Below, piece after piece: positions 9,864-63,999 of a stretch of DNA of 64,000 nucleotides. Position numbers and translations under genes: made by a program. Location: contig NZ_JAUSXN010000001.1 of NCBI RefSeq assembly GCF_030816015.1, positions 5,642,001 to 5,706,000 of the forward strand, read 5' to 3'. Position 1 is the first letter of the stretch. Each line of letters begins with the position of its first letter. Origin of the DNA: Pedobacter sp. W3I1 (lineage in GTDB: Bacteria; Bacteroidota; Bacteroidia; Sphingobacteriales; Sphingobacteriaceae). The notes beneath the pieces are model-generated. The model had not been told where the DNA came from and did not search any database. It was given only the letters and a program-made list of their open reading frames with translations.

Positions 9864-12800
9864 TTGCTGCTTGCGCTTCTTATTTTTTCGCTGCAATTTA
9901 AGTCCGTTCAAACTTATTTAGCGCAGAAAACTGCTGCGTACCTGTCAAAAGAGCTCAAAACCACCGTTTCAATTAGAAGTCTTTATATTAAACCCTTTAA
10001 ATCTATCGTACTGGAAGATTTATTGGTATTGGATTTACAAAAAGACACTTTATTGAGAACCCCTCAGTTCATGGTCGATATTAATCAATTATCCATCGAT
10101 AAAAAGATTATCGATATCAATACCATTCAAATCAACAATGGGCGGTTTTTCCTAAAGGATTTCAAAGATAAGTCTTCTAATCTCGATTTCATTATAAACT
10201 ACTTCGATTCTGGTAAACCCACTGTAAAGAAAAAGAAAAGCAAGCCATACGATATCAATATTGGCCGTATTATTTTAAACAAATTTGCCTTCAGGTATAA
10301 AAATTACGGAGCAAAAGATACTACGCAAGGCAAAAGTGTAAACTTCGAGAATATTGATATTAAAGAACTCAGCGGTATTTTTGAGGGGCTCGACACGAAA
10401 AAGCACCTGGTTAAAACCAATATCAAAAACCTAACCTTTAAGGAGCGGAGCGGATTTTACCTGAAAAATCTAACAGCGCAAACTACTATAGACAGTAATG
10501 CTATTGAGCTGAAAAATCTATTGCTCGAAACCAATCAGAGCCGTTTAACCGATTATTACCAAATGCGGTTTAAAAGTTATAAAGATTTTAACCACTACGT
10601 AGATAATGTGCGGATGAAAGCTATTTTTAAAAATAGCCATATCACCTCAAGAGACATTGCATTCTTTGCGCCTGAAATGAACACCATGAAACTCGACCTG
10701 GATGTTGATGGTCAGATTACGGGTTTAGTGAATAACCTTAAAGCCAAAAAACTATCATTAAGAACAGGAAAAGCCACACACATTAAAGGAGATTTTATTA
10801 TAAAGGGACTACCGAAATGGAAAGAGACCTTTATGGACCTCAACATTGAAATGGCGGGGACTAATAAAACCGACCTGGAGGAAGTGCTGGCAGGCATTAC
10901 CAACAGCAAGAAGAAAATTGTTCCTGTAATTGTAAACAAATTTGGCAACATTAACTTTAATGGAAGCTTCACCGGTTTCCAGAACGACTTTATTGCCTAT
11001 GGCGAATTTAAAACCAAACTTGGCCGTATTGTTTCAGATGTGAACATGAAAATCGACAAAAACGATGTTCCATCCTATACCGGGAATGTAAAAAGCTACG
11101 ATTTTAACCTGGGTAATCTGATTGATGAAAAAAGTCTTGGCCGCATCAGTTCTTCTTTATATGTTAAGGGACGTGGTACTGAGCTTAAAGAGTTAACCGA
11201 GAAGATAAACGGCGATATAGACTATATCGATTTTAATAATTACCGATACCACAATGTGAAAATTGATGGAACTTTTAATAAAAAGTATTTCGATGGTAAG
11301 CTAAGCATTAACGATCGCAACGTGAAACTGGTTTTTGATGGCGGGGTAAACCTGAATCCAAAACTGCCTGTATTTAACTTTAATGCTACAATTTCAAAAG
11401 CAAAATTAAAGGCCTTAAAACTCCTGAAAGATTCGTTACAGGTTGATGCTAAATTTACGACCAATTTCTCGGGCACCAACCTGAACAATATATCGGGCAA
11501 ATTATTAATTGAAGAAATCAGACTACAAAACCCGAAAGGCATTTACAGTGTAGATTCGGTACAGTTAATGGCCAACGGTACGGGTGCCAGCCGCGTACTG
11601 GATATCCGGTCAGATATTTTAGATGCCAGCATTAAAGGTGAATATGATTTAAATTCTATTGTTTCGTATTACAAAGCCATTGCCAAAACGTATATCCCTT
11701 CGTTAAAAGCCGATATTATTAAATACAAGAACCAGATTTTTCAGTTTAACCTGAAGGTTAAAAAATTCGAACCGCTTGCGCAGATCTTTCTACCAGGCTT
11801 GGAATTAGAAGAGGGTGCTGTACTAACAGGAGATTTCGATTCGCGCAACAATACCGCAACGCTGAACGGTTTTGTGAAGAAACTAAAATACAATGGCATT
11901 GTGGTAAACAATATTATCCTCGATGAAAATACCACTACACAACAGCTTCAACTGATTGTAACCTCCGATCGTGTGCAGATTAACGATAGTTTATTTATTA
12001 AAGATGTAAACATTTCCAATATCCTGCGGAACGACAGTTTGGCCTTCAACGTAAAAATGTCGAACGCAGACGAAGACAATCAGCTTGATTTAAACGGACT
12101 GGTAGAATTTACCAAAAACCAGGATACCACGGCAAGGTTAAGCGTATTGCCATCGATCTTAAAAATTAATAATGAAGAGTGGCGCATTCAGGAAAAAGTA
12201 CGCATCGTATTAAACAATGGTAAAACCGAAATCAGTAATTTCGATTTAACCAACGGGAAACAGCAACTTACTATTGATGGATTAATTTCGGAAGATCCCA
12301 AAGATTTAATTAGTGTTGGCTTTAAAGATTTTAACTTAAAAACCCTGAATCCTTTTACCAAAGGCTTTGGAGTTAAATTAGGCGGAAACGTTAACGGGGC
12401 AACTGATTTGTATGGCATATTAAAAGCACCCAGGGTAACCGACGATTTAAAGATTGATTCGTTAAACTTTAACGATATCTATATCGGCACCTTAACCGAT
12501 ACTTCATCGTACAGCAACGAGAGCAAAAAAATAAATGTATTTACACGCATCATGGCCGACGGTTCAGAGACTCTTAAACTGACCGGAAATCTAGATCTAA
12601 AAGAAAAAGCGATCGACCTTGCTGTAAAAATGGACGAAAGTAAGCTTACCATTCTCGAGCCTTTTGTTAAACAACTGGTATCCAATTTAAAAGGAAATAT
12701 CTCGGCAGATTTAACCGTAAAAGGTAAATTTGACAAGCCTGAAATTAATGGAAATGTATCGTTAAATAAGGCACAGCTGATGGTGAACTACCTTAAAACC

Positions 12801-14294
12801 ACCTATGTAATTACTGATCAGGTAGAGGTGAATAATAGCGTAATTAAACTCGACGATTTTGAGCTTAAGGACCTGGAAGGCCATGAAGCTACTGCACGCG
12901 GTAGTGTTGATTTAAACGACATTAACTACCCTACATTGAAAGTAACGGTGAATGCAAACAGTTTAATGGCCTTAAACACTACCGCGAAAGACAATTCGGT
13001 ATACTATGGCCGTGCATATGGCACGGGCGTATTTACGTTTACAGGCCCTACCAATAAAATGAAGATCGATATCAAGGCAAAAACGGAGAAAGGAACCGTG
13101 TTTAACTTGCCTCTAAATAGTTCTGAAACCATATCGGATAAAGATTTTATTAATTTTGTAAGCCGCGATTCGACTGTTCTGGTTAAGAAAAAAACCAACT
13201 TTGATGGTTTAACCCTAACCTTCAAATTAACCATCGACCCGAATACCACCGCGAATATATTTACCACCCTGGGTAATTTAAGTGGCAAGGGTAATGCCGA
13301 TCTAAACTTAAACATCAACAGTTTCGGCGATTTCGAAATGTCTGGCGATTATATCATCGAGACCGGAAGTTTCGATTTTACAGCCCAGGAGGTAATCAAC
13401 AAAAAATTCGAAATCAGGCAAGGTGGAACCATCCGCTGGACGGGTAACCCTACTGCCGCACAAATTAACTTAAAAGCAGTATACGCTTTGAGGGCAAGTT
13501 TAAACGACCTTTACAAAGCAGCCAACCGCGATGCCAGCAGCAATGCCAACCAAAGGGTAAATACCGAGGTAGAGATGGGGTTAACGGGTTTACTGTTAAA
13601 ACCAGATATTAAGCTCGATATCAATTTCCCTGCACAACCTTCTATTAAAGAAGAACTGCAAACCTATTTCAGCGATCAGAACAACCTGAACCTGCAGGCT
13701 TTCAGTTTAATTATCAGAAGAAGTTTTGCCCCTGGAAATGGTGGCGAATCGATCGGAAACCAGCTCAGTTCTACCGCAACCAGTACAGCTACAGAGTTGG
13801 TATTTAACCAGTTTAACAATGTACTTTCTTCATTAAACCTAAACTTTGTCGATCTGAACGTACGCTCGTTGAGCGAGGCCAATGCATCGTTTAAATTCTT
13901 TAGTGATCGTTTAATTATTAATGCAGGTATTGTAGATCGAAACAGTGTGAACGATTTTACCGTGATCGATTTCTCTAAAGACAATGTAGGCAGAGAGGTT
14001 GAGGCACTTTTCCTGATTAAAAAAGATGGTAGCTTAACCGTAAAAGCTGCAAATAAACCTCCTACGCAACAGAGTATATTCTTAAACAGCGGGATCAGTT
14101 CAACGGCAAACGTTACCTCTTTTGGTTTGGTGTATACCCAGCAGTTTGATACGTTTAAGGAGTTTATTCAGAAAATTTCTGGCGCTTACCGCCGGAACCT
14201 GAAAAGGAACCAAAGCCAGGTTCCTGTTAAAACGAATAAATCGATTAATAAAGACGCGATTATTAATCAAAGCAAAGGGAACCAACGGAGGTAA
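9864..14294 (+). CDS. tamB: TamB-like translocation/assembly module protein
   Basis: A very large (1476-residue) envelope protein expected to span from the inner membrane to the outer membrane as a long lipid-conducting beta-taco (TamB/AsmA-like, DUF490). The body is a long run of beta-strand repeats rich in Asn/Asp/Lys/Leu. The conserved C-terminal TamB domain is recognisable at about 1150-1400 (DFTAQEVINKKFEIRQGGTI, RWTGNPTAAQINLKAVY). The TTG at 9864 is the first standard start, but it falls inside the membrane anchor. In-frame codons upstream to 9798 encode KKLFKILLWVIASIILL, so the true N-terminus probably begins near 9813 at a non-standard ATT or a misread ATG. It is divergent from tsaD. 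Function is inferred from the family. Confidence 0.88.
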   Translation: MLLALLIFSLQFKSVQTYLAQKTAAYLSKELKTTVSIRSLYIKPFKSIVLEDLLVLDLQKDTLLRTPQFMVDINQLSIDKKIIDINTIQINNGRFFLKDFKDKSSNLDFIINYFDSGKPTVKKKKSKPYDINIGRIILNKFAFRYKNYGAKDTTQGKSVNFENIDIKELSGIFEGLDTKKHLVKTNIKNLTFKERSGFYLKNLTAQTTIDSNAIELKNLLLETNQSRLTDYYQMRFKSYKDFNHYVDNVRMKAIFKNSHITSRDIAFFAPEMNTMKLDLDVDGQITGLVNNLKAKKLSLRTGKATHIKGDFIIKGLPKWKETFMDLNIEMAGTNKTDLEEVLAGITNSKKKIVPVIVNKFGNINFNGSFTGFQNDFIAYGEFKTKLGRIVSDVNMKIDKNDVPSYTGNVKSYDFNLGNLIDEKSLGRISSSLYVKGRGTELKELTEKINGDIDYIDFNNYRYHNVKIDGTFNKKYFDGKLSINDRNVKLVFDGGVNLNPKLPVFNFNATISKAKLKALKLLKDSLQVDAKFTTNFSGTNLNNISGKLLIEEIRLQNPKGIYSVDSVQLMANGTGASRVLDIRSDILDASIKGEYDLNSIVSYYKAIAKTYIPSLKADIIKYKNQIFQFNLKVKKFEPLAQIFLPGLELEEGAVLTGDFDSRNNTATLNGFVKKLKYNGIVVNNIILDENTTTQQLQLIVTSDRVQINDSLFIKDVNISNILRNDSLAFNVKMSNADEDNQLDLNGLVEFTKNQDTTARLSVLPSILKINNEEWRIQEKVRIVLNNGKTEISNFDLTNGKQQLTIDGLISEDPKDLISVGFKDFNLKTLNPFTKGFGVKLGGNVNGATDLYGILKAPRVTDDLKIDSLNFNDIYIGTLTDTSSYSNESKKINVFTRIMADGSETLKLTGNLDLKEKAIDLAVKMDESKLTILEPFVKQLVSNLKGNISADLTVKGKFDKPEINGNVSLNKAQLMVNYLKTTYVITDQVEVNNSVIKLDDFELKDLEGHEATARGSVDLNDINYPTLKVTVNANSLMALNTTAKDNSVYYGRAYGTGVFTFTGPTNKMKIDIKAKTEKGTVFNLPLNSSETISDKDFINFVSRDSTVLVKKKTNFDGLTLTFKLTIDPNTTANIFTTLGNLSGKGNADLNLNINSFGDFEMSGDYIIETGSFDFTAQEVINKKFEIRQGGTIRWTGNPTAAQINLKAVYALRASLNDLYKAANRDASSNANQRVNTEVEMGLTGLLLKPDIKLDINFPAQPSIKEELQTYFSDQNNLNLQAFSLIIRRSFAPGNGGESIGNQLSSTATSTATELVFNQFNNVLSSLNLNFVDLNVRSLSEANASFKFFSDRLIINAGIVDRNSVNDFTVIDFSKDNVGREVEALFLIKKDGSLTVKAANKPPTQQSIFLNSGISSTANVTSFGLVYTQQFDTFKEFIQKISGAYRRNLKRNQSQVPVKTNKSINKDAIINQSKGNQRR

Positions 14295-30361: not shown

Positions 30362-30502
30362 TCTTCTTTCGATATTGTCCTTCAATGCGATTGGCGACTG
30401 ATTTTTTCGAAGTGTACGATAGCTTCGCAATGGTCGTAAAGGGTCGACAAGATGCGCCTCGACCCTACTGAGAAAAAGCTCATCGAAAGATGGGCTTTTT
30501 TT
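30362..30502. repeat. Remnant module with terminator, copy 1
   Basis: Shares with 33078-33204 a segment whose minus strand encodes STLYDHCEAIVHFEK, followed on the plus strand by the near-identical GAAA-tetraloop terminator. Copies at 33078 and 40565 encode STLFEHCEAVVNFEK and STLFEHGEAIVNFEK. These look like decayed copies of a short ORF tail. Confidence 0.55.
30476..30502 (+). terminator. GAAA-tetraloop terminator, copy 1
   Basis: Nine-pair stem AAGCTCATC/GATGGGCTT capped by GAAA and followed by five further T residues. The same hairpin recurs at 31054 and 33178. Confidence 0.8.
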
Positions 30503-30619
30503 GTTTAAGATATATTAGGCTTGAATCAAGCTTAACTAAATAATTAATTCACATTCGCCAAGGAATTGCCCTATTTCTCAAAGAATGCACTGGTTAGAAG
30601 CTCTCCGTATGAGCTATCC

Positions 30620-31046: not shown

Positions 31047-31053
31047 TGATCAA

Positions 31054-31080
31054 AAGCTCATCGAAAGATGGGCTTTTTTT
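31054..31080 (+). terminator. GAAA-tetraloop terminator, copy 2
   Basis: Identical stem and loop to the one at 30476 (AAGCTCATC-GAAA-GATGGGCTT with T run), directly after the tRNA fragment. Confidence 0.8.
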
Positions 31081-31426
31081 GTTTAAGGGTGCATTGAGTG
31101 AGTTTTCTATCGCATTAAAAGTATTTTCTGCTTACTTCAAATATAACCATTTCTGTTTACGACCGTTTTTTGATAATTTGTAGTTTAATCAAATATGAAC
31201 TTTAATCCAGGCTTAAATCATTTTAGTGCAATGGTAAACAGTTTCTTCAACTAATTTACAGAATTATTTTTAGATGTTTTATTAAAAGGATCTACTTTAT
31301 TAAGCCTACATGCTCATTTTCAGATAGATAATCCTGCCCCCTCAGACCTATACTCAAATTAGCAGTAAGCAATTCGTACAATTCTGTAAAACTCTTAAAA
31401 CAAAAAATCAGTTTTTTATGTTTTAT

Positions 31427-33077: not shown

Positions 33078-33204
33078 ATTGTCCCGCTACCTTGTTTTCC
33101 AGTACTTTTTCAAAATTCACGACTGCTTCACAATGTTCAAAAAGGGTCGAACTTCAGCGGATTGACTCTACTGATTAAAGCTCATCGAAAGATGGGCTTT
33201 TTTT
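33078..33204. repeat. Remnant module with terminator, copy 3
   Basis: Same organisation as 30362-30502. On the minus strand an open stretch encodes STLFEHCEAVVNFEKVLENK, then VAGQYRKNKNG and a stop. It is followed on the plus strand by the shared terminator. Confidence 0.55.
33178..33204 (+). terminator. GAAA-tetraloop terminator, copy 3
   Basis: AAGCTCATC-GAAA-GATGGGCTT plus T run, the third copy of the hairpin in under 3 kb. Confidence 0.8.
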
Positions 33205-33405
33205 GGTTAAAAATCTGCTGAACATGTTGATTTTTGGGGGAGATGCTAAGACGAGTTAGATTAGCGAATAATTTCCACTTAGTTAGTCAATATCCATTGG
33301 GTTAATGTTTATCTTTCGAACCTGTTACCTGCTCCGATAAAGAGAAAAAAATTAATAAAGAAAATCAACAATTCTTAAGAATTGGAAAATCTAAAATGAT
33401 AAGTT

Positions 33406-35472
33406 ATGAAATTAATCGCTAAAATATCTGTTTGCCTGGTATTGATGATGGGACTATCCATCACGCTTTATGCACAATCAAAACAACAGGCTGTTAAATT
33501 GGTATTGCGCTCAACACCATGGACATTTACCGGAGGATCTGCGCTCAGTACGCTTTCGTCAAAAACAAGAAGCGTAATTTTCAAATCCCCGTCAGACAGC
33601 AGTAGCTTTACCATAAAATTACTGGTTAATCTTAAAGCAGGAAGTGCGAATAAGACCCTTATTGACATCCCTGAAGTGTTAAAAGTGACTATGTTTCAGC
33701 ACGACGCAAAAGATCGAAAACGTCAAAACTATCCTGCCTATTTATTGCCAGATGGTTCTGATCCAGTGTTAGAAGCGTCTCTTCGGCTTCATTCTTTAAC
33801 GGAGCCTAATGGTCCACGGGATATGTCTATCGGTATTCCCTTAGCGATGTTAGAAAAACTAAATGGAGAACATGAGCTCGTGCTTCATTTTTCCGGAGTT
33901 CGGTGGACGCTATACGTTGATAATGAGCTTCTTGATAATGACTTTCCCATAGGATATCCAAAATGGGGCGAACAAAGCACCTGGAGCATAGATCCTTCCG
34001 TTGTTTTAAAAGCGGAAATTTTTTTCCCCGGAATGCAGCCACAAAGAGTGGCTTTGAAAAAACCCAGAACTGTGGCTGAAATTCAATACTGGACACCTCA
34101 GGGACATAATGCCTGGGTGGGAGATGTTGCTACTTTCTTTTACAAGGGACGTTACCATTTATTCTATTTATTTGACCGCCGTGGTCACGCCAGCAAATTT
34201 GGAAAAGGAGGTCATTATTTTGAGCACCTCTCCACCACTGATTTTAAAACCTGGGTTGAACACGATGCCGCCACACCTATAGAGGAACAATGGGAGATGT
34301 TTGGAACTGGTACACCTTTTATCTTTGACAATAAACTTTGTATCAGTTACGGATTGCATACCACACGGATCTACCCTAAGGAACAAACCATGTTGCCTTT
34401 ACAGTGGGATTACTACAATAAACATGGCATTACGGGCTCTTTCCGATACGACACCATTCCTGGCTATCCTGCCGGATCCACCTATTCCATTAGTGAAGAT
34501 GGAATCAGTAATTTTAAGAAATCAAAAATCTTATTTCATCCTTGCGAAAATCCTAGTGTTTATACGGATCCGGAGGGACGCTTGCGCATGTTGGCGAATT
34601 ATGGAGCAAAAGGGACGTGGGAATCTAAGTCCATTAATGGTGGCTGGCAATCCGTAAATCCAAACTTCCCTCCTGGCGGCGATTGTACATTTTTCTTTCG
34701 CTGGCAAAATTATGACTACGTTATTGGTGGTTTTACCGGTTTTTGGTCAAAACCAGCAGGTGCAACAGAGGACAAATTTGTAGATGGTGTTAAAGCAGGG
34801 CTTGACTTTTACAATGGAATGAATGTGCCAGCCGTAACAGAAATAAGCAACGGCCGGTTTTTGCTGGCTGGCTGGATTCCAATAGCAGTTTGGGGTGGAA
34901 CACTAGCTATACATGAAATGGTACAGGCGCCAGACGGCAGAATTGGAACAAAGTGGATGAACGAGATCATACCTGCAATCCAAAAAGAAAGGTTACTGTC
35001 AAAAGAAATTAAAAAAACTTCCACATTTCCTACAGGTTCTTCTTCATTCCTATTGACCTTCGACGTAGAACCTGGCACCGAATTAAATGGAAAACTAGGC
35101 GCACTTTTTCTAGGCGCAGGCAATGAAGACCATGCTTCTGAAGTTCAAATCAGTCCAAACTATAAAAGGGCGCAATATGGAAATGGACAGCTTCAGAATT
35201 TTTCTGGTACGGAGAAATCCTTACATGAGGGGGGATCGCCAAACAGTGTGCGTAATTATGCTATTGAAAATTTGTCTGGTACAGATAAACCGTTTACAGT
35301 TCGAATGATTGTTAAATATGAAGACAAATTTGGCGGATCATTAATTGATACTGAAATTGCTGGTCAGCGCACGATGATTTCTTTCCGTCCCGATTTAAAA
35401 GTTGAAAACTTGCTATTAAGGTCGGAAAAAAGCGTTATTAAAAATGTGAAAATTGCCTCACTTAAAAATTAG
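33406..35472 (+). CDS. Secreted GH32/GH43-like beta-propeller protein with N-terminal lectin-like domain
   Basis: A 688-residue exported protein (signal peptide about 1-23, ending LYAQ). Residues about 30-210 look like a concanavalin-type beta-sandwich (VIFKSPSDSSSFTIKLLVNL, ELVLHFSGVRWTLYVDNELL). From about 225 a five-bladed propeller of the GH32/GH43 superfamily begins: YWTPQGHNAWVGDVATFFYK, GRYHLFYLFDRRGHASKFGK, then STTDFKTWVEH. The usual GH32 WMNDPNG is replaced by PQGHNAWVGD, in which the Asp could be the nucleophile or base. A candidate acid is the Glu in CENPSVYTDPEGR. A third beta-sandwich follows at about 540-688. A fructosidase or arabinofuranosidase-type activity is possible but not shown. 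It stands alone. Confidence 0.75.
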   Translation: MKLIAKISVCLVLMMGLSITLYAQSKQQAVKLVLRSTPWTFTGGSALSTLSSKTRSVIFKSPSDSSSFTIKLLVNLKAGSANKTLIDIPEVLKVTMFQHDAKDRKRQNYPAYLLPDGSDPVLEASLRLHSLTEPNGPRDMSIGIPLAMLEKLNGEHELVLHFSGVRWTLYVDNELLDNDFPIGYPKWGEQSTWSIDPSVVLKAEIFFPGMQPQRVALKKPRTVAEIQYWTPQGHNAWVGDVATFFYKGRYHLFYLFDRRGHASKFGKGGHYFEHLSTTDFKTWVEHDAATPIEEQWEMFGTGTPFIFDNKLCISYGLHTTRIYPKEQTMLPLQWDYYNKHGITGSFRYDTIPGYPAGSTYSISEDGISNFKKSKILFHPCENPSVYTDPEGRLRMLANYGAKGTWESKSINGGWQSVNPNFPPGGDCTFFFRWQNYDYVIGGFTGFWSKPAGATEDKFVDGVKAGLDFYNGMNVPAVTEISNGRFLLAGWIPIAVWGGTLAIHEMVQAPDGRIGTKWMNEIIPAIQKERLLSKEIKKTSTFPTGSSSFLLTFDVEPGTELNGKLGALFLGAGNEDHASEVQISPNYKRAQYGNGQLQNFSGTEKSLHEGGSPNSVRNYAIENLSGTDKPFTVRMIVKYEDKFGGSLIDTEIAGQRTMISFRPDLKVENLLLRSEKSVIKNVKIASLKN

Positions 35473-53848: not shown

Positions 53849-55357
53849 TTAATACCCTGGATTTTGAATAAGGTTCTGGTTTCCAAGTTGGTTGTCAGGA
53901 ATAGGGAACAATAGGTACTTGGCCTCACTTGCAGGTTTTTCCTGCCATGCGGCCAGGAATTTCCCGAAGCGGATCAGATCCTGTCTCCTGAAGCCTTCCC
54001 AATAAAGTTCCCTTCCCCTTTCATCAAGGAGATTGTCTAAGGTTAGGCTCGTAAATGCCGAAGCGCCTCTTGTGGTTCTGATCAGATTAACGGTAATGAG
54101 CGCCTGTGCCGCCTGCGAGGTGCGCAACTGTGCTTCTGCTTTCATTAATAATACGTCAGCATAGCGGAAATAAACCCAATCATTATCCGGTTTTTTCGAT
54201 CCGGTATTGGCATAATCAATAGGATATTTGATCACCCTTATGCCGGCAACTTCCAGGTGGTTGGGATCACGTTCTATAATGCTTACCTCAGGCGTAAAGG
54301 CTAAAGGATTTCCTTTTCTGTCTTTCAGTGCAGTACCGTTCTGATCAAATTGTTGGCCTACCAAAAAACCTACCCTGATTCCAGAGACGTTGGTTTGCCC
54401 GGTATAATTCCCACCCCTTCTTGTATCGGTCGCTTCAAATTTATTATAAAAGTTAGATAGTGTAGAAAAGCCGTTATAGCCGTTCGGGTTCTGATTATAG
54501 TGTGTGGTGCATTTCCACATCCCATCCAGGTCGCTTCCTGAAGAACCTGCGATATTTTGTGCGGTAAATATATTTTCTTTCGATAAAATATCATTGGTGG
54601 GTGCAAAATTATCGAAGTAACCTGCCGTCAGTGTATAACCTCCTGTAGCAATTTCGTCGGCGAGCGATATTACTTTTGCCATATCAGCAGCATCAAAAGT
54701 TGGTGCAGTGCGGTTTAAAAATGCGCCCTTGTTCAGGTATACTTTCATCAGAAGTGTTCTGGCGGCATTCTTGTTTGCAATATTTGCAGGTCCGGTAGGC
54801 AAATCCGGGATAATTGCCGTCAGCTCACTGATCAGATAACTCAACTCATCAGCCGCATTTCTAACCCTTGATGGCTTGGTTACGTCTTCACCTGCATCCC
54901 GGTAAGGCACCTGTCCCCAGCCATCCAATATGGAAAACTGGGCGAATGCACGTAAGAAACGGGCCTGTGCTGCCTGGCTTGGAGTTGGACTGCTACCCAA
55001 AACGCTTGTTGCAACATAACTGATACTGTTTAAGTCCCTAAATACGTCCGATATCCTGGAATGGTCTGGTGCCCATTTATGCAGGTGCAGCGCACGCCAG
55101 GCACCGTTGTCATCCCAATCGCCTGCCCGTGTGGGTACAATGGTCTCATCTGAGGTTACTTCCTGCAGGGCAGACCAGTTCCATGGGGCCTGATAGGGAC
55201 CAACCATGGCCGCATAACTCGCGCCCAAAACACTGGCAACATTTCCTGATGTTACCCCCGAATTGCCTACCTGACCATTCAGGTCTTCGTTTAGTTTGGT
55301 ACAGCCCGATAAACCCAGGGCAACCACTACAAAACTGATAATACATTTATTTTTCAT
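53849..55357 (-). CDS. SusD/RagB-type nutrient-binding outer membrane lipoprotein
   Basis: A 502-residue SusD-family surface glycan-binding protein. A lipoprotein signal (VVALGLSGC, Cys19) precedes the TPR-like helical domain and the starch-binding-type insertions. C-terminal features match the family: VYFRYADVLLMKAEAQLRTS, NLIRTTRGASAFTSL, LLDERGRELYWEGFRRQDLI and RFGKFL. It is encoded 18 bp downstream of the SusC gene, and the two would form the lidded TonB-dependent uptake complex. Ligand identity is inferred from the surrounding xylan-type enzymes. Confidence 0.93.
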   Translation of the reverse strand: MKNKCIISFVVVALGLSGCTKLNEDLNGQVGNSGVTSGNVASVLGASYAAMVGPYQAPWNWSALQEVTSDETIVPTRAGDWDDNGAWRALHLHKWAPDHSRISDVFRDLNSISYVATSVLGSSPTPSQAAQARFLRAFAQFSILDGWGQVPYRDAGEDVTKPSRVRNAADELSYLISELTAIIPDLPTGPANIANKNAARTLLMKVYLNKGAFLNRTAPTFDAADMAKVISLADEIATGGYTLTAGYFDNFAPTNDILSKENIFTAQNIAGSSGSDLDGMWKCTTHYNQNPNGYNGFSTLSNFYNKFEATDTRRGGNYTGQTNVSGIRVGFLVGQQFDQNGTALKDRKGNPLAFTPEVSIIERDPNHLEVAGIRVIKYPIDYANTGSKKPDNDWVYFRYADVLLMKAEAQLRTSQAAQALITVNLIRTTRGASAFTSLTLDNLLDERGRELYWEGFRRQDLIRFGKFLAAWQEKPASEAKYLLFPIPDNQLGNQNLIQNPGY

Positions 55358-55375
55358 GTGCTTACAATTAAAAAA

Positions 55376-58300
55376 TTAAAGAGAAAAATTAACACCAAAG
55401 TTGAAAGTCCTGGCGGTGGGATAAGCAGTATAATCTATACCTGCAGACGGCACACCGCTTACACTTTTGTTTACATTTACCTCCGGATCGAAACCGGTGT
55501 AATTGGTAATTACAAAAAGGTTCTGGCCGTTAACGTAGAGGTTTAAGGATTTGATCGAGGTGCCGATGTTACCAAAGTTATAACTGATGGTTGCATTGGC
55601 CAGTTTTACATAGTCTCCTTTTTCGATATACCTTGACGATGCTGCTATAGGGTTGGCAAGGGATTCTGCTATTGGAAGGTTAACCAGCGCGGATGAAATA
55701 TTACGTGTACCTAAATTTGAGATGGCCAGTACTGAGTTTGCTGTGTTGTTGTAAATGCTCTGTCCGAATGCACCATTGAAATTGGCCGAAAACGAAAATT
55801 TCTTATACCTTACATTTGTACTTAAGCCCAAAATTACCTTTGGGTTTGGGTTGCCCACATAATAATTGGTAAAACCATCATCGGTGTATATAGAAAATCC
55901 ACTGGCATCCAAACCATTATATTGTCTGGTAACCATAGCAAATAGTGGCAGGCCATTTTGGATCACCTCGGTGGTAACTCCACTTAATCCCTGACCATTC
56001 AGCGATCCGGTTTTGATGATCCCCGATATGTTCTGGACTTTATTTTTAATGAAGGTTGCATTACCTCCCAAAGACCATGATACGTTATCGTTTTCGATGA
56101 TCGTTCCATTCAATGTTAGCTCCAGCCCTTTGTTGATAATCTGCCCTGGTAGATTTACCCATGTAGGTACATTGCCGCCGACCGCAGGTACGAACGAAAT
56201 CTGTGGAAATAGCAAATCGTTAGTGGTTTTGTTAAAATAATCGATAGATCCCGTAAGCTTGTTTCCTAAAAAACCAAAATCAGCCCCAATATTTGTCTGT
56301 TTGTCAGATTGCCACTTCAGGTTCGGGTTTGCATTGTTGATGGCTATTAAAGTAGGCTGTCCGTTGGTATTGCCGAAATCATAACGCTGCTGTGCAGATC
56401 CCGATGGAAAATCCTGGTTACCGGTTTTGCCATAACCAACCCTTAGCTTTAGTTGATCTATCCAGACAGCATCGCTAAGAAATGCTTCTTTTTTGATATC
56501 CCAGGCAGCAGCAAATGATGGAAAATAACCATATCGGTTCGACTTTCCGAATTTGGTTGAACCGTCTGCCCTGAAGGTAGCTGTTAAAATATACTTGCTG
56601 TCGTAATTGAAGATCGCCCTTGCAAAGTAAGACTGTAATTCTGTTGTTGGATTGTTAAAAGCTGCGAATATACGGTTTGCAGGAGCGGTAGTCTGGAAGG
56701 CATCGGTATAATCCGCATCGATATCGCCAAAACCAGTAGCGGTATTGATCGTTCCTTTATTGATGAAACTAGAATATTCATAGCCGATGATGGCATTCAG
56801 ATTAAGCTTGCTTACAACTTCTTTGTTAAAATTTAAGGTGTTGGTAAACTGTTGGGTAATGAGTTCGGTCGTTGAATAACTGGCAAAACCGCCAAGAAAA
56901 TTACCGTCGGGCTGTATGCCCTGTAAATTAAGGAAACTCCTTGTCGACGCTCTTCTGATCCCGCTGCTGTAATTTACACCTGCCAACATTCTATATTCCA
57001 GCCAAGGTGTAATTTTGTAATAAGGAGAAACACTGCCCAAAATGGTAGATACTTTGGTCTTATCGTTGTTTGCGGCAAGAGCAGCAAGTGGATTAATGGT
57101 TGTTGAGCCATAATCTATAAATAAACTGCCATCGGGTTTATAAAATGACTGTGTTGGGTTCCATGACAAGGCCTGGCTGATCAAACTGCCAGTAAAGCCT
57201 GCATCGGTGGTAATAGGAGCAATATTCTCTAAGTACTGGTTGCTGATCATGTTAACATCCAATCCTAGTTTTTTACTGTTCAGAAATTTAAAATTACCAT
57301 TAAAGCCCGCGCTGTACTTTTTAAAATCGGTCGATTTGATAATCCCCTGCTGATCCTGATAGCCCAGAGAGGCACGGAAAGTATTTCCGTTGCTGCCACC
57401 GCTGATGCCAACAGCATAATTCTGGTTGTAAGCCGTACGCGTAATGGCATCCAATGCATCCACACTATTGCCGAAATCACCAGTGGTGAGGTTGTATTTT
57501 TTCAAGGCTGCCCGGTATTCATCCCCGCTTAAAACATCTACCTTTCTGGCAATACTGCCTACACCTGCTGATGCGCTGATATCAATTTTAGTTTCTCCCG
57601 ATTTTCCTCTTTTAGTGGTAATCAGCACTACGCCATAAGCTGCACGTGAACCATAAATTGCCGTTGCCGATGCATCTTTTAAGATTTCCATCGATTCGAT
57701 ATCGGCAGGGTTTATAAAGTTTAAAGGATTTCCATCAGGAGTGGTTCCGGTACCTGCACTGGCAGTTAAACCTGCAACACCGGCATTGGTTGATGGTCTG
57801 GCCGACCTTCCATCCAATGCGACACCATCTACCACATACAGCGGCTGTCCGGTACCGGTTATAGCAGAATTCCCCCTGATGCGTACTGTTGAGGCACCAC
57901 CTGGCTGACCGCTGTTATTGATCATTTGTACACCGGCAACTTTGCCCTGAATTAACTGATCCGGAGCGTTTAAAGGTCCTTTGTTAAAATCCTTTGCCGA
58001 AACAGTTGTAGCCGCACCGGTTAAATCGCTTTTCCTTACTGAAGCGTAACCTATAACAACTACTGCTTCCAGATTATTTAAGGATGCCATAGTGATATTG
58101 ATTACCGTTTGGTTATTAATGCTTACAGTTTGTGTTTCCATACCGACAAAGCTGAAAACGAGCTGTGTGGAGCCTGAGGGAACAGTAATGGCATATTTTC
58201 CCTCAGCATCTGTCTGTGCTTTTGCGGTACCTGGTTTCACTTGAATGGTTACACCGGCCATTGGCAATTTATCGCTGTCGAGCACAGTGCCCTTAATTAC

Positions 58301-58429
58301 ACTTTGTGCAAAAGCTGGTGCGCTGAGCAGCAGCATGCAGCAACTTATCATCATAAGTTTCTGCAAAAAATACAATTTCTGTTTGTTGGATAAAACAGCC
58401 CAATTGCTTTTTGGTAAAGTAATATTCAT
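55376..58429 (-). CDS. SusC/RagA-type TonB-linked outer membrane transporter
   Basis: A 1017-residue TonB-dependent transporter. The signal peptide ends near FAQ (about 42). A carboxypeptidase-like beta-sandwich (SVIKGTVLDSDKLPMAGVTI, VSFVGMETQTVSIN) comes first, then the plug (about 125-260: VRGNSAITGTGQPLYVVDGV, KDASATAIYGSRAAYGVVLI, TTKRGKSGETKIDI) and a 22-strand barrel that ends in FNFGVNFSL. The N-terminal part is the diagnostic SusC domain order. It precedes SusD in one operon and would import oligosaccharides. Promoter-leader motif CTAACCAAAAA lies upstream (58440-58451). Confidence 0.96.
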   Translation of the reverse strand: MNITLPKSNWAVLSNKQKLYFLQKLMMISCCMLLLSAPAFAQSVIKGTVLDSDKLPMAGVTIQVKPGTAKAQTDAEGKYAITVPSGSTQLVFSFVGMETQTVSINNQTVINITMASLNNLEAVVVIGYASVRKSDLTGAATTVSAKDFNKGPLNAPDQLIQGKVAGVQMINNSGQPGGASTVRIRGNSAITGTGQPLYVVDGVALDGRSARPSTNAGVAGLTASAGTGTTPDGNPLNFINPADIESMEILKDASATAIYGSRAAYGVVLITTKRGKSGETKIDISASAGVGSIARKVDVLSGDEYRAALKKYNLTTGDFGNSVDALDAITRTAYNQNYAVGISGGSNGNTFRASLGYQDQQGIIKSTDFKKYSAGFNGNFKFLNSKKLGLDVNMISNQYLENIAPITTDAGFTGSLISQALSWNPTQSFYKPDGSLFIDYGSTTINPLAALAANNDKTKVSTILGSVSPYYKITPWLEYRMLAGVNYSSGIRRASTRSFLNLQGIQPDGNFLGGFASYSTTELITQQFTNTLNFNKEVVSKLNLNAIIGYEYSSFINKGTINTATGFGDIDADYTDAFQTTAPANRIFAAFNNPTTELQSYFARAIFNYDSKYILTATFRADGSTKFGKSNRYGYFPSFAAAWDIKKEAFLSDAVWIDQLKLRVGYGKTGNQDFPSGSAQQRYDFGNTNGQPTLIAINNANPNLKWQSDKQTNIGADFGFLGNKLTGSIDYFNKTTNDLLFPQISFVPAVGGNVPTWVNLPGQIINKGLELTLNGTIIENDNVSWSLGGNATFIKNKVQNISGIIKTGSLNGQGLSGVTTEVIQNGLPLFAMVTRQYNGLDASGFSIYTDDGFTNYYVGNPNPKVILGLSTNVRYKKFSFSANFNGAFGQSIYNNTANSVLAISNLGTRNISSALVNLPIAESLANPIAASSRYIEKGDYVKLANATISYNFGNIGTSIKSLNLYVNGQNLFVITNYTGFDPEVNVNKSVSGVPSAGIDYTAYPTARTFNFGVNFSL

Positions 58430-58560
58430 CGTTGATTTATTTTTGGTTAGAAAAATTTAATTGACCATATAAAGGTGATCGGTTAAACTAGGGGGATTTG
58501 TTTTTTCTGCTCTTGTTCATGATGTTTAGTTTTAGTTAGTTGAGAATATATTGTATTTAT

Positions 58561-58830
<270 letters not shown>

Positions 58831-59124
58831 TCATATTCTGGAATACAACTTTGTTAAATTACTAAAAATGTAGTACATGTAAGCATGTATTGTATTTATT
58901 GATCTAACTGCCCGTCATTTTTTCTTTGTCTATTTAAAAGCGAAATAATGGCCTTGGTGATCGGAATATGTCTATCATCCACGTTCGCCTGTCGAAGTTT
59001 ACTGAGGTTCTTTTTAAAGGAAATGCCGATATCGAAATGAGAATCATACATGCAAAAAGTTCTCAAGAAGGGGAACTTAGTGTACTAAACGGGCTTTCTA
59101 TCCTGTTAAAAAGGATTTTGCCAT

Positions 59125-59379
59125 TTTTTAAGTGATGAAATGCTAGCCGGGGCAATGAAGGCCCTACAGAGAAAAGGGCTTAAAGTTCCAGAAGATATTG
59201 GCGTTATCGCAATCAGTGCTAGGGTGATTCCTCAGCTTTTCTATCCGGAAATTACCTATGCTGAAACAAATGGGTTCAAATTGGGTAATTAGCTTTTGCC
59301 AGGATGATAAAATGCATTGCAGGAGTTCCTAGCGCAAACCATTATTGATCAATCAATACTGGTATCTGGAGGTTCATTG
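59125..59379 (+). pseudogene. LacI-family regulator, C-terminal relic
   Basis: The plus strand encodes FLSDEMLAGAMKALQRKGLK, VPEDIGVIAIS and FYPEITYAETNGFKLGN, then a stop and, one frame on, AQTIIDQSILVSGGSL. This is the LacI/PurR ligand-binding C-terminus (DExAxGAxxALxxxGxxVPEDVxVIGF..LTT..xxxG). The DNA-binding part is not found. It probably once regulated this polysaccharide locus. Confidence 0.6.
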
Positions 59380-59436
59380 TGATCTTGAATGAATGGGAGT
59401 AAATTAGCGTTTATACTGAAGAGGAGAGGTACAGCC

Positions 59437-59730
59437 TTAGCTGCTAGATATTTTCGAAATAACACTGCGATTGAGCAAACTTGTCCAGATCCTTTCCAGT
59501 AACACTTGTGAGGCTTTTAAGCACCGATTTTCTTCCTTATCGATAAGGTGTATTTTGGCAAAAGTGGTTTCTTCCCCACTTTGGAGGTAAAGGAATTTAA
59601 CCCGATAGTTTTTCAATTTAAAAAGCATTCGTATTAAGCTTTGGAAGCTCATTAGATTAATTAGGTACCCTTGAACCATCATCAGCATCTCTTTAATCGG
59701 CCGTACAGACACCCTAGAATAGAAGATCAT
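59437..59730 (-). pseudogene. Possible fragment of a hybrid two-component regulator
   Basis: A 97-residue open stretch; EMLMMVQGYLINLMSFQSLI, LFKLKNYRVKFLYLQ and KEENRCLKASQVLLERIWTS vaguely recall the receiver C-terminus and linker before the HTH of Bacteroidota hybrid sensors. It has no start context or domain integrity. I list it only as a candidate relic. Confidence 0.25.
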
Positions 59731-60039
59731 TGCGAACCGTCGATTTCTTCTTGTAGACTAAGACCAGGTTTTATTACAATCTGGCCAAAAGCCTGGTTTA
59801 ACAGTAGCCCTAGATCTTACTAATCAGGACACTGACTGTATAATTTATAGAAAACCTTAAGCAAGCAGACAAATACGCCTTTTCTTAACGACCTACCTTA
59901 TTTATCCATTTTGACAGCAGCACCACATGTGTTTTTATAAGAATAAAATATTTACTCTTCACTGTTGCCTTTGATCTGCCCATCCCGTTATAACAGATAA
60001 CAAGATTCAATTACACATAAATAATCTGAAAAAAAAATC

Positions 60040-60375
60040 ATGAACACTTTGAAACAAAAACATCATTTCAGGAACATTAGCATCTTTGGCGCTGATTGCA
60101 TTAAGTTTTACTTCATGTAAAAAAGATGCAAAAGTCTCCCCTGTAAGCTGTGCGAGCGTTGCCGTTTTACATGCCTCACCAGGATCACCAGACTACACCG
60201 TTAACCTTAACGGTAAGGCTATGTTAAAAGATCCGATCACTTATGGTTCATTTGTCAATTATAGCTTGGTTAATGCCGGAGCAAACGAATTCAGTATGAT
60301 CAAAAAAGGAGAAATGGTAATAAGCGGAAAAACATCCTTTCCTTTTAAGAAAGATGTTTCTTATCCGAATCCAGG
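60040..60375 (+). pseudogene. DUF4397-type lipoprotein, broken
   Basis: ATG at 60040 begins MNTLKQK, then the frame slips at an A5 run (60056-60060) and continues as NIISGTLASLALIALSFTSC (lipobox TSC), KKDAKV.., SVAVLHASPGSPDYTVNLNG and NYSLVNAGANEFSMIKKGE. VAVLHASPGSPDYTVNLNG is the DUF4397 opening motif. The rest degenerates near KKDVSYPNPG and the open frame runs on into antisense of the GH43 gene. The domain is known, but its function is not. Confidence 0.6.
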
Positions 60376-60460
60376 CTGGCTAAAAAGGTTTGACGGGTTA
60401 AATAAATATATAACCAGTACAAAAATTGAATATTTAATCGATCGGATCATTCTCTTTATT

Positions 60461-62380
60461 TTAGTGCGTAGGTTTTACAGGCACAATATTTCCCTGTTCG
60501 TCAAAATACATCCGGTCAATGCAAACCTCGCGATTAAAGCCTGCCGCATCGCCCATTTTTATTCCATCGGGATAACTAAATCTATGGTAAACAATATACC
60601 ACTCATCTTTTCCCGGAATTTGTAACACCGAATTATGGCCCGTTCCGTAAATACCCCTGGATGGGTCTTTTTGAAGAATCAGGTTATTTTCTGAAATCTT
60701 AATAGGTCCTGTGGGAGAACTTGATGTACCATAACGTACGCGATAATTCTCACTTCTAGTATCCTCATCAGACCATAAGAAATAATAAGTTCCCTTACGG
60801 TAAAATACATAGGTACCTTCTCTAAAAGTTTTATCCGTTTGGAGGACTTTGGTTGTATTGGCTTTTAGGGATACCATATCTTTATTCAGCTCAGCTACCG
60901 CGAGGTATCCATTTCCCCAATATAAATAACTTGCACCTGTTTTAGGGTCGGTAAACACAGCTGGATCAATCTCCTGTCCGCCTTTTATCCCCTCAGGTTT
61001 AAAATTAATCAGCGGTTTTCCAGAATCCATAAACGGGCCTGTCGGGAGATCTGATACAGCTACACCGATTTTTTGTGCTGCTGTAAAATAATAGTAATAT
61101 TTGTAATTACCTTTTATCTTTTTCTCTGCGATAGTGGGAGCCCATGCATTGCGTTTGCCCCAGGTAACATCTTTTTTCAGATCAAGAATAACGCCTTCAT
61201 CTTTCCAGTTAACCAGATCTGTAGAAGAAAAAGTTTTAAAATAAGTACCTCCCCAACCGTCGAAGCCATCACTGGTTGGATAGATATAATATTTCTTAGT
61301 TTTATTGGAATATAACACATCCGGATCTGCATAAAAGCCATCCAGTAAAGGATTCTTTTTTAGTTTCAACTCCATGCCTTGAGGCACGCCCCATCGGGTA
61401 GTAAGTGCAGTTAATTCTTTACGGGATAAAGGGATAATCGTTCCGTGCCGTGGATGAAAATCCATTTTCACCTCGTGGTCAATCACTTTGAATTTGTCCA
61501 GATCATAACTTTCGCAAAACTGATACTTTCCTTTGCCATAAACATCGTACATCAGTATGTATTTTTCCGAGCCGTTTAATTTGAATATACCCGAACCTTC
61601 TACAGCGTCTGTTGTCTGCTGTTTATATCCTGCCTGCTCAATCCATTTCCCTGAAACCAGTGAATCAGTAAGTGCAAGTTTTATCCCATTTCCATTGCCT
61701 TCGGTTTTATAAAACAGGTAAAACAACCCGTTTTTGTTGATGATATCGCCATCAATGCAGGATTTGCCATTTTTCGGATGAAACAGTATGGCAGGTTCAG
61801 ATTCAAAATCGGTAAAATCATTATTGGCATAAGCATAGTAAATGATATCCGGACCAGTGCCATGCTGCATCGACAAATAGACCAAGTATTTTCCTTTTGC
61901 CGGATCGTAAATGGTCTGAGGAGCCCAAACCCGTTTTAAATTTTCATTTCCTTTAAAACGTTTCTGTATGTTGATCACAGTATGTTTCCAGTTCAACAGG
62001 TCATCCGATTTCATCATAATCAATGCCCGATTGGAATCCCATCCTTTGGAGGAGGTCATATCGGTGAGTACCATGTAAAAAGATTTCCCATCCTGCGCAC
62101 GAAGGATGTGCGGGTCGCGTACACCTCCGGTAGAACTGATAATTTTTGAATCCAGAACAGGCTGGTTATTATTTAACGCACGGTAATTGTATCCATCGGT
62201 ACTGATGGCAAAGCAGACCGCCTCATCCTGCACTGCATTACCCTTAAAGTAGGTAAACAGGTATCCTGCAAAATCTTTTTCTGCCGGACCAGATTTATAG
62301 TCCTGACCGGATAAGTTTCCGATAAAAGCTATATGTAATAAAGCAAGGAGAATCAGGCGTTGACATCGAAGACTTTTCAT
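60461..62380 (-). CDS. Tandem GH43-type beta-propeller glycosidase
   Basis: A 639-residue secreted protein (signal peptide about 1-25, ending LSGQ) with two five-bladed propeller units. The first (about 30-310) has GGVRDPHILRAQDGKSFYMV and ends VEGSGIFKLNGSEKYILMYD. The second (about 345-635) has the GH43 catalytic pattern: GFYADPDVLYSNKTKKYYIY (base Asp), the middle Asp region KGGQEIDPAVFTDPKTGASY and acid Glu in FREGTYVFYRKGTYYFLWSD. The second unit matches arabinofuranosidase/xylosidase enzymes; the first may be inactive or have another specificity. It belongs to the xylan-type locus and has its own transcription unit, followed by gene debris. Confidence 0.88.
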   Translation of the reverse strand: MKSLRCQRLILLALLHIAFIGNLSGQDYKSGPAEKDFAGYLFTYFKGNAVQDEAVCFAISTDGYNYRALNNNQPVLDSKIISSTGGVRDPHILRAQDGKSFYMVLTDMTSSKGWDSNRALIMMKSDDLLNWKHTVINIQKRFKGNENLKRVWAPQTIYDPAKGKYLVYLSMQHGTGPDIIYYAYANNDFTDFESEPAILFHPKNGKSCIDGDIINKNGLFYLFYKTEGNGNGIKLALTDSLVSGKWIEQAGYKQQTTDAVEGSGIFKLNGSEKYILMYDVYGKGKYQFCESYDLDKFKVIDHEVKMDFHPRHGTIIPLSRKELTALTTRWGVPQGMELKLKKNPLLDGFYADPDVLYSNKTKKYYIYPTSDGFDGWGGTYFKTFSSTDLVNWKDEGVILDLKKDVTWGKRNAWAPTIAEKKIKGNYKYYYYFTAAQKIGVAVSDLPTGPFMDSGKPLINFKPEGIKGGQEIDPAVFTDPKTGASYLYWGNGYLAVAELNKDMVSLKANTTKVLQTDKTFREGTYVFYRKGTYYFLWSDEDTRSENYRVRYGTSSSPTGPIKISENNLILQKDPSRGIYGTGHNSVLQIPGKDEWYIVYHRFSYPDGIKMGDAAGFNREVCIDRMYFDEQGNIVPVKPTH

Positions 62381-62422
62381 TTTTGATGGCTAGATTTTTT
62401 TAAGGTTCTGTATGAATTAAAT

Positions 62423-62450
62423 AGGGTGCGGTTAAGAGAACCCGCACCCT
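62423..62450 (-). terminator. Terminator after the DUF3823 gene
   Basis: Perfect arms AGGGTGCGG (62423-62431) and CCGCACCCT (62442-62450) with a 10-base loop, 9 bp past the DUF3823 stop. The following T tract is weak. Confidence 0.6.
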
Positions 62451-62458
62451 TTCTGCTA

Positions 62459-63145
62459 TTATTTTAAAGCTATTTTTTGTACCTGGGTATAGTAATATTC
62501 TCCTGCAGCGGTAGATTTAACCCCCAATCTGGCATATACATAATCCAACGATTTCAAATTATCGGGCAACGCTCCTGAAGATATTTCAATCTGTTGGCCA
62601 AGCACAACACTGCTTATGTTCGCGTCTACCCGAACTTCACGTTGTACCTGATCGGTCAAAATCGATTTTCCAAGATAGAGCCGTACAAACTCCAGATTTG
62701 CAGTTTGCACTACTTTATTAACCACCAGCTTTGCAATGATGTTATCTCCGGATTTTTGAAAAGACTCACCTGTGATGGTAAAATAAGGCGTAACAGGAAC
62801 ATCAAGATTGGTATCCCCCTTTACCTCTATCCTTACCGTATCTGTAGCCTGCTGCAACCAGGGTGCATCCGCTCTGCGTACCAACTTGTACTGGCCATCA
62901 AACAGTTTTGCCGAAAAAGTTCCATCCTGATTAAGATATACCGTAATGGGTGATTTAAGTGGATAACCATCCTGCCACAACTCTAACTGAGGGCCGTTGT
63001 TACGTACGCCAACCACTCTTCCCTGATAAACCACTTTTCCTGCAAGGGTTACTTCAGGGGCCTCAAAATTATCATATTCACAGCCTGCCAGCAATATACT
63101 AGTTGTTGCAGCAAATATCATTAAGAATTTAAATTTCATATTCAT
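62459..63145 (-). CDS. DUF3823 lipoprotein of a SusC/SusD locus
   Basis: A 228-residue lipoprotein (lipobox ILLAGC, Cys21). The N-terminal domain is DUF3823 (VTLAGKVVYQGRVVGVRNNG, PQLELWQDGYPLKSPITVYL, FSAKLFDGQYKLVRRADAPW), a transthyretin-like fold; the C-terminal domain (about 125-228) is a second beta-sandwich (VVNKVVQTANLEFVRLYLGK). These proteins regularly follow SusD in glycan loci, usually as extra surface binding lipoproteins. It is encoded 5 bp after the second SusD gene, so the two are co-translated. Confidence 0.9.
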   Translation of the reverse strand: MNMKFKFLMIFAATTSILLAGCEYDNFEAPEVTLAGKVVYQGRVVGVRNNGPQLELWQDGYPLKSPITVYLNQDGTFSAKLFDGQYKLVRRADAPWLQQATDTVRIEVKGDTNLDVPVTPYFTITGESFQKSGDNIIAKLVVNKVVQTANLEFVRLYLGKSILTDQVQREVRVDANISSVVLGQQIEISSGALPDNLKSLDYVYARLGVKSTAAGEYYYTQVQKIALK

Positions 63146-63150
63146 AAAAA

Positions 63151-63999
63151 TTAGTTGAATGGATTTCTGACAATTTTTGGATTGTTGTTTAACACATCCT
63201 GAGCGATTGAAGAATAATAATTGGCCAGTCGGAAAAATCTTGCCCTGCGGAAACGGCTTGGCCTGATGCGTTCATAAATATATTTGCCATTATCAGGATG
63301 CCCTGGTCTTACCACTCTGTATCCGTAAAGTCCCCTAACCACTGCATTGGGATCATTTTCAGAACCGTCCCAAACAATATGCGCGATACGCCATCTTTTT
63401 AGATCAAAATAACGATGATCTTCAAAAGCAAGTTCTACACGCCGCTCATTACGGATAATATCTGTCGTTAGTGCACCAAGGCTATTTGCAGGAAATCCGG
63501 CACGGGCCCTTATCGAATTAACATATCCAAGGCCTTCAGGTCTCCCCAGTTCAAAGGCCGCCTCTGCGGCATTAAGGTAAATTTCCCCTAAACGAAACCA
63601 TGGCCACCAGTTTGATGCACCGGTACCCCTTGTACTTGCTGCCGAAGCGTCACTTACAAATTTCCGGATGTAAAATCCGGTATTACTTACATCCATGGCA
63701 TCATCTTTTGGTCCGTCAAATCCAGTCCAAAGCTGCCCATCGGTATAGTTTTTACCCAATTCTGCTGAAGTAGTTAGCTGATAGGTTCCATTGTTCCAAA
63801 CCGCAACACCTGCCTGTATTCTTACTGGATTATTTTTGAAGTTTGTACCAGGGTAAATTACCGTTCCAAATAAACGGGCATCCTTACCTGCAAAAATATC
63901 CATCATACCTGTATAGGTAATGTAGTTACCAGCTGCATCTTTGTCACGAAGCGTACCTTTAGATCCATCTAAATAGTTGAAACTTTCTACAAAGCTCAG
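63151..63999 (-). CDS. Second SusD/RagB-type protein, N-terminus outside window
   Basis: The C-terminal 282 residues of a SusD-family surface glycan-binding lipoprotein; the frame is open to the window edge, so the start lies beyond 64000. Clear family motifs: WWPWFRLGEIYLNAAEAAFE, VNSIRARAGF, IIRNERRVELAFEDHRYFDL, KRWRIAHIVWDGSENDP and the C-terminal QDVLNNNPKIVRNPFN. The fragment order SusD then DUF3823 implies that a second SusC lies just outside. It belongs to the same or a sister polysaccharide locus. Confidence 0.92.
   Translation of the reverse strand: MSFVESFNYLDGSKGTLRDKDAAGNYITYTGMMDIFAGKDARLFGTVIYPGTNFKNNPVRIQAGVAVWNNGTYQLTTSAELGKNYTDGQLWTGFDGPKDDAMDVSNTGFYIRKFVSDASAASTRGTGASNWWPWFRLGEIYLNAAEAAFELGRPEGLGYVNSIRARAGFPANSLGALTTDIIRNERRVELAFEDHRYFDLKRWRIAHIVWDGSENDPNAVVRGLYGYRVVRPGHPDNGKYIYERIRPSRFRRARFFRLANYYSSIAQDVLNNNPKIVRNPFN

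Follow-up and report, generated by a model that had tools for sequence, protein, structure and literature searches.

A GH32-like protein family in Bacteroidota that keeps the nucleophile and replaces the other two catalytic residues

GH32 and GH68 enzymes have a textbook fixed catalytic triad, and their RDP motif binds O3 and O4 of fructose and tunes the acid/base. A gene of the soil bacterium Pedobacter sp. W3I1 raises the question of what becomes of a protein of this kind when the triad is altered. It lies in a 64,000-nucleotide stretch of contig NZ_JAUSXN010000001.1 (positions 5,642,001 to 5,706,000, forward strand; the window), in which the first-pass annotation had proposed a possible new glycoside hydrolase group, with a GH32/GH43-like propeller between two beta-sandwiches and the NDPNG catalytic loop replaced. 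The reading frame exists as described and is not a chance opening, since 17 other loci (L031-L044, L075-L077) hold a frame of the same family, 688-697 aa long. Its features, in window positions, are as follows.

33406-35472, + strand: open reading frame of the target protein, ATG start, 688 aa
33406-33477, + strand: signal peptide, residues 1-24, MKLIAKISVCLVLMMGLSITLYAQ, called by eye, without a lipobox Cys
33478-34065, + strand: N-terminal beta-sandwich, concanavalin A/LamG-like, residues ~25-220, from a model with pLDDT 77.5
34078-34974, + strand: five-bladed propeller of GH32/clan GH-J type, residues 225-523, from profile and fold matches
34114-34125, + strand: WVGD, with D240 in the GH32 nucleophile column, by alignment, 18/18 orthologs
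34375-34479, + strand: insert-bearing stretch, residues ~324-358, from alignment gaps in companions and other GH32
34546-34554, + strand: ENP (E381-N382-P383) at the RDP transition-state-stabiliser motif, by alignment, 18/18 orthologs
34681-34686, + strand: DC (D426-C427) at the EC acid/base motif, by alignment, 18/18 orthologs
34978-35469, + strand: C-terminal beta-sandwich as in GH32, residues ~525-688, mostly high pLDDT, within the GH32 fold match

With a signal peptide that lacks a lipobox Cys, the window copy would be periplasmic or secreted. A lipobox-like Cys, counted by eye at the N-termini, occurs at this site in 11 of the 18 orthologs, among them all seven from PUL-linked loci. Both blades singled out in the first pass are present, as YHLFY at residues 250-254 and STTDFKTWVEH at 276-286.

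We compared the protein with known families by profile and by fold. The single relevant Pfam match was the GH32 N-terminal domain PF00251 at residues 236-321, which scored 20.2 bits in hmmscan and 22.3 in a six-frame search against a cut-off of 22.1; orthologs scored 21.9, and 23.2 and 23.0 in the six-frame search (G031 and G035). NCBIfam gave one match only, at E 0.64 and far under its cut-off, and the best PDB sequence match was a beta-fructofuranosidase (E 0.028). The first-pass statement that the protein fitted no named family was therefore fair at the sequence level, where the assignment is borderline. A profile of 17 sequences (the window protein, 14 orthologs and two of the companion GH32-like proteins described below) found its best solved relatives in BT1760 entries and a Thermotoga beta-fructosidase (E 1.4e-6 to 1.7e-5). 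AlphaFold2 on this alignment gave a model of modest confidence (pLDDT 58, pTM 0.61) in which a propeller is followed by a beta-sandwich, as in GH32 and clan GH-J, and whose best VIA-align match was the levanase BT1760 (Z 25.7, rmsd 3.7, 403 aligned, model residues 223-687). The best 50 VIA-align rows were all sucrose or fructan enzymes, judged by their titles, as were the top Foldseek rows, where GH43 xylosidases first appeared at rank 32. The Pfam search listed three families at E up to 1, none of them PF04616 (GH43), and its HMMER filters drop weak matches. A GH43 origin was thus not supported by profile or fold, bearing in mind that absence from a match list excludes nothing, and the evidence favoured the GH32 part of the proposed GH32/GH43-like propeller. 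As modelled, the fold is not new and matches GH32, clan GH-J, rather than GH43.

The N-terminal part, modelled alone (residues 24-222, 15 sequences), matched the N-terminal part of NanB sialidase with Z 12.3 and CBM40 and other lectin-like domains with Z about 11-12, and CBM66 and galectins were among its Foldseek rows; receptor-binding domains of clostridial neurotoxins were also among the fold matches. By its modelled ConA/LamG-like fold it is a probable sugar-binding module, although a Z of 11-12 may perhaps reflect just a common sandwich and so carry no information on function. Within the propeller, the insert at ~324-358 corresponds to gaps in 9/9 companions and, at four listed columns, in 50-54 of 54 other GH32 rows; residues 317-357 of the full-length model have pLDDT below 50.

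The first pass had placed the novelty at the nucleophile, where PQGHNAWVGD does stand at residues 231-240. The catalytic residue itself is not replaced. BT1760, whose catalytic residues are Asp41 (nucleophile), Asp169 and Glu221 according to passages of PMC6560043, has FVGD at this place, which aligns with the WVGD of the target and puts D240 in the Asp41 column, and nine companions have GD. We therefore rejected the loss of NDPNG as a novelty, and with it the reason first given for a family without a name. The real departures, overlooked in the first pass and stronger than the WVGD change, are in the RDP and EC motifs.

We counted these motifs in 81 rows (18 target, nine companion and 54 other), taken from GH32 search matches above 100 bits and 380-800 aa long, a selection that leaves out weak or odd GH32 relatives. 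All 18 target sequences carry the Asp nucleophile expected in the first blade of GH32 enzymes (WMNDPNG or a variant), ENP where GH32 has RDP, with its stabiliser Asp and conserved Arg, and DC where GH32 has the Glu acid/base in EC. Among the 63 other rows, RDP was found in 61 of 61 filled columns and EC in 62 of 62; the companions had the nucleophile Asp, RDP and EC in 9/9 each, and the 54 other rows, where filled, had them in 49/49, 52/52 and 53/53, with five columns empty at the nucleophile, two at RDP and one at EC. Two of the three catalytic residues are thus changed in the target and the nucleophile Asp is kept. The RDP arginine is changed as well, a residue described in part of PMC3360783 as completely conserved across clan GH-J. 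The first-pass annotation had named firm placement in a family with intact catalytic residues as the outcome that would speak against a new group; half of this was found, a GH32 fold, together with two altered catalytic residues and an altered RDP Arg. The target is GH32-like by fold and ancestry; judged by the residues tested, it ought not to be classed within GH32.

These counts depend on the register of the alignment, and an ordinary GH32 fructanase could have been misread, for example if TDP (387-389) were the true RDP motif. Propellers are repetitive, and hhalign against six canonical GH32 sequences alone gave a probability of 43% with a register that slipped after the first blade, which counts against the ENP and DC assignments. 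However, the MAFFT sets, HMMER against BT1760 and hhalign against the companion profiles (99.1% probability, E 1.7e-18) concur in placing ENP on RDP and DC on EC, and the model strands 384-387 and 393-396 would fit the RDP-KVF strand and its partner. We consider such a misreading improbable, the least likely of the explanations weighed here. D257, H261, H270 and R321 are common to target and companion and missing in most other GH32 rows.

A second possibility that the altered site raises is changed chemistry on fructan, such as transfer, the making or opening of an anhydride, or a reaction of inverting or lyase-like type, with D240 and E381/D426 in new roles. The fold is common to levan fructotransferase (4fff, Z 23.5), and the RDP Arg and Asp are replaced together with the acid/base residue, both of which agree with such a change; any product is nevertheless hypothetical and, to our knowledge, the known GH32 fructotransferases keep their catalytic triad. 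We regard this reading as quite unlikely.

Comparison with known systems set the target apart from each of them. The endo-levanase BT1760 (GH32; PDB 6r3r, 7znr, 8a9y) shares the propeller and C-terminal sandwich (Z 25.4-25.7), VGD at the nucleophile and, with seven of the 18 target loci, levan-type SusCD partners; it is a surface lipoprotein, as stated in part of PMC7618045, and 11 of the 18 target orthologs may be so too. BT1760 has the RDP Asp D169 and E221 where the target has ENP and DC, and the target has an extra N-terminal ConA-like domain and is only 13-14% identical over the structural match. The companions (L041:6513-7982 and eight relatives, some outside a PUL) are closest to the target by profile, and unlike it they retain RDP and EC and lack both the N-terminal domain and the ~324-358 insert. 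The canonical GH32 of the own genome (L150:7893-9422, WMNDPNG) belongs to the same fold family but has an intact triad, and its locus includes a PfkB kinase; four further canonical GH32 proteins show 19-22% identity to the target catalytic domain. Plant defective invertases are likewise GH32-derived proteins, which do not split sucrose, but their triad, in the passages available from PMC3713406, is said never to be affected, whereas that of the target is altered. The beta-galactosidase Lac161_ORF10 resembles the target in a clan GH-J-like propeller, an altered RDP motif (KDP) and an unexpected activity of its own; it was grouped with DUF377 and keeps the motif Asp (PMC5342196, in part), a description that sets it apart. 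Among the titles and abstracts listed in searches of open-licence PMC papers, none described this family.

To learn how far the family extends, we scanned genome contigs with a seven-sequence profile, whose patterns reach close relatives only, and found 14 loci in 13 organisms (Pedobacter, with two loci in Pedobacter frigidisoli, a Mucilaginibacter MAG, Flavobacterium franklandianum, Dyadobacter bucti and a Sphingobacteriaceae strain). The family was present in 11 of 251 genomes of the window's own family, with 12 hits at 616-684 bits and the next score at 62, and hence no intermediate between target and companion among them; in a sample of 395 genomes from the class, the own genome was the sole carrier. 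The set of 18 orthologs comprises the window protein, the scan loci and three from the family search (L075-L077); where measured, the others share 67-96% identity with the window protein. Loci L013-L016 (G015, contig 145) are fragments of a second gene copy, some with internal stops, and the intact copy lies on another contig. The presence of orthologs in three families (Sphingobacteriaceae, Flavobacteriaceae and Spirosomataceae) suggests horizontal spread of the gene. A mobile origin was considered and set aside; no relative was found in viral contigs with the six patterns used, nor in plasmids at E 1e-5.

A tree of 334 columns and 64 rows placed the target sequences in one group (100/100) on a long stem, with the companions and BT1760-like rows on the target side of the branch to canonical GH32 (100/100). 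It was built from 64 of the 81 rows, two partial ones and 15 close relatives, chosen by eye, having been removed, and as long branches meet in it (companions with canonical, BT1760-like with target), we claim from it only the unity of each group.

The propeller of the target is under strong purifying selection, and its altered site is maintained. Against L031, L032 and L033, dN/dS was about 0.10, 0.08 and 0.08 in the propeller and between about 0.12 and 0.27 in the sandwiches, with the propeller lowest in each pair; these values refer to the three pairs nearest the window only, some pairs giving no finite dS. Against the more distant L075, the propeller was 82% identical and the sandwiches 53% and 61%. 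Purifying selection would preserve a binding pocket too and is not proof of catalysis. A lineage spread over three Bacteroidota families in which the nucleophile alone is kept would show either a triad rebuilt for another sugar or a fructanase turned binding protein, so that the target may act on an unusual sugar or bind a sugar without cutting it.

The gene neighbourhood bears on both readings. Orthologous SusC and SusD genes adjoin the target gene in seven of 18 loci (L034, L037, L041, L043, L075, L076 and L077), which we refer to as PULs, and 11 loci have neither in the stretch examined; several of these stretches, L031 most of all, are short or stop at a contig end. The nearest orthologs of the window all belong to the latter group, yet show low dN/dS. 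A companion GH32-like gene with the usual triad was present in six of the seven PULs (L041, L043, L075, L076 and L077, and the L037 genome via L021), and the stretch of the remaining one, L034, ends before any companion position. An FGGY kinase also accompanied six of the seven (L034, L037 and L075; L043 via L082; near L076 and L077 by position, G899 and G864) and was not found in the L041 stretch, and a ROK kinase was seen in two (L021 and L041) within the stretches examined. The FGGY kinases at L037:6045-7385 and L075:17129-18454 are about 64% identical across genera. The nearest family of the FGGY proteins is xylulokinase and that of the ROK proteins glucokinase, both matches falling far under the curated cut-offs, and no PfkB was found among nine L021 proteins searched. 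Some of the loci have further genes in common, for a sugar-porter MFS protein, a LacI regulator and a GntR regulator that carries a periplasmic-binding domain. In Dyadobacter the order on one strand is SusC-SusD-MFS-companion-ROK-target. When 14 target-bearing genomes were searched, five had the companion and the same five had the FGGY kinase.

The PUL importers point to the class of substrate. The Dyadobacter SusD matched levan SusD (5lx8, 6z8i, 8aa2) at E 2.2e-147, with the next protein at 1.5e-28, and its SusC matched levan SusC (5t3r, 6z8i, 8a9y) at E 2.8e-276, with the next at 7.6e-149; the title of PDB 8aa2 names the levan utilisation machinery. Judged by sequence, the PUL SusC and SusD are members of the BT1763/BT1762 fructo-oligosaccharide importer family. 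A plain fructan locus in the own genome comprises MFS, PfkB kinase, SusC, SusD and a GH32 with WMNDPNG; its SusC and SusD share 60% identity with their Dyadobacter PUL counterparts, the next own-genome match to the Dyadobacter SusD being 36%. SusD identity to the plain-locus SusD was 58% for L034 and L037 and 48-49% for L043 and L075-L077, and the SusD of these latter four PULs is 47-49% identical to the Dyadobacter and own-genome SusD. BT1762 contacts fructo-oligosaccharide through D41, N43, D67, W85, C298, R368 and Y395, as listed in part of PMC7782687, a numbering that fits the aligned PDB entry. In nine SusD proteins (seven from PULs and two from plain fructan loci), D67, C298-C299 and R368 were kept in 9/9, D41 in 3/9, N43 in 4/9 and W85 and Y395 in 0/9. 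The ligand may therefore differ from that of BT1762. Together these neighbours point to a fructan-like substrate handled with an unusual kinase set, and a fructan-like substrate with a non-standard sugar is plausible, which is as far as we would go; this substrate is read from neighbours that the window's own genome lacks.

The reading we favour, tentatively, is that the target is a secreted or cell-surface retaining ketofuranosidase derived from GH32, with a rebuilt -1 subsite and a fructan-like, non-standard ketoside as putative substrate. The protein's origin would lie in the GH32 fold group around BT1760 and the companions. D240 would attack the anomeric carbon, D426, shorter than Glu, would serve as acid/base, and N382 and E381 at the RDP position may serve to recognise another ketose or a fructose that bears a substituent. 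The N-terminal module would dock the protein on the polymer, the products would enter via SusCD, the companion enzyme may cut the imported products further, and the PUL kinases (FGGY, plus ROK in two loci) would phosphorylate them. In the window genome the target, without PUL or lipobox, would be an enzyme working on its own, either in the periplasm or secreted. We prefer an enzyme because D240 is kept, the carboxylates E381 and D426 are present, and copies with no nearby SusCD are conserved.

A narrower form of this proposal holds that the target founds a putative new family in the GH-J fold, in which Asp serves as acid/base and ENP takes the place of RDP. It would free a ketose other than plain D-fructose, say a ketopentose like xylulose, from a polymer resembling fructan, and so supply a dedicated PUL whose importer is of the levan type and whose FGGY kinase resembles xylulokinase. 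We think this specific version unlikely.

The same site could instead have lost its chemistry. The Glu and the stabiliser Asp are gone, and E221A lowers the activity of BT1760 about 4,000-fold (PMC6560043, in part), so catalysis may simply be dead. The target would then be a pseudoenzyme whose GH32 propeller serves as a fructan-binding pocket, helped by the N-terminal ConA-like module, in a role like that of the surface glycan-binding protein BT1761. Such a role agrees with the replacement of two catalytic residues and the RDP arginine in 18/18, with the lipobox-like Cys (by eye) in all seven PUL loci, as for a surface binding protein, with the second GH32-like enzyme with an intact triad in six of them, and with purifying selection, which also keeps binding pockets. 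D240, however, is present in 18/18 although binding would not need it, the changed site still holds the carboxylates E381 and D426, and copies with no nearby SusCD are strongly conserved; an accessory of the importer would not be expected to persist with low dN/dS where SusCD is missing. As for the features of a surface glycan-binding protein, the lipobox-like Cys occurs in 11/18 by eye and adjoining orthologous SusCD in 7/18, and the window copy has neither. The ROK kinase in only two of seven PULs and the weaker importer match in four of seven slightly weaken the enzyme reading and slightly raise that of binding, which we hold to be a real possibility, less probable than a rebuilt enzyme.

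The window copy itself stands alone, with no PUL beside it, and its genome had no companion at E 1e-20 and no FGGY kinase at E 1e-60. An operon was considered and is not evident in the window, where the closest genes with an annotation encode an S41 peptidase and an alpha/beta hydrolase. Just upstream of the target gene, a 29-base hairpin occurs in three exact copies within 2.7 kb (30475-30503, 31053-31081 and 33177-33205; mean 0.00 in shuffles), of which the one at 33177 is terminator-like, and the copies sit inside degenerate 52-nt and 74-nt repeats. The last two copies flank a MarR-like ORF (by eye) and the S41 peptidase. Searches of the repeat region for tRNAs and Rfam families found neither, and in the rest of the genome a 26-base core of the hairpin matched once more, with two mismatches. 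These repeats are possibly duplicated insertion sites. Elsewhere in the window, a 1476-aa ORF with a TTG start lies at 9864-14294 (+ strand), and a separate PUL-like cluster at 53849-63906 (- strand) contains a SusC/SusD pair, a DUF3823 protein and, at the edge of the window, a second SusD; it also codes for a protein of 639 aa in which two stretches are GH43 and another is GH32N-like.
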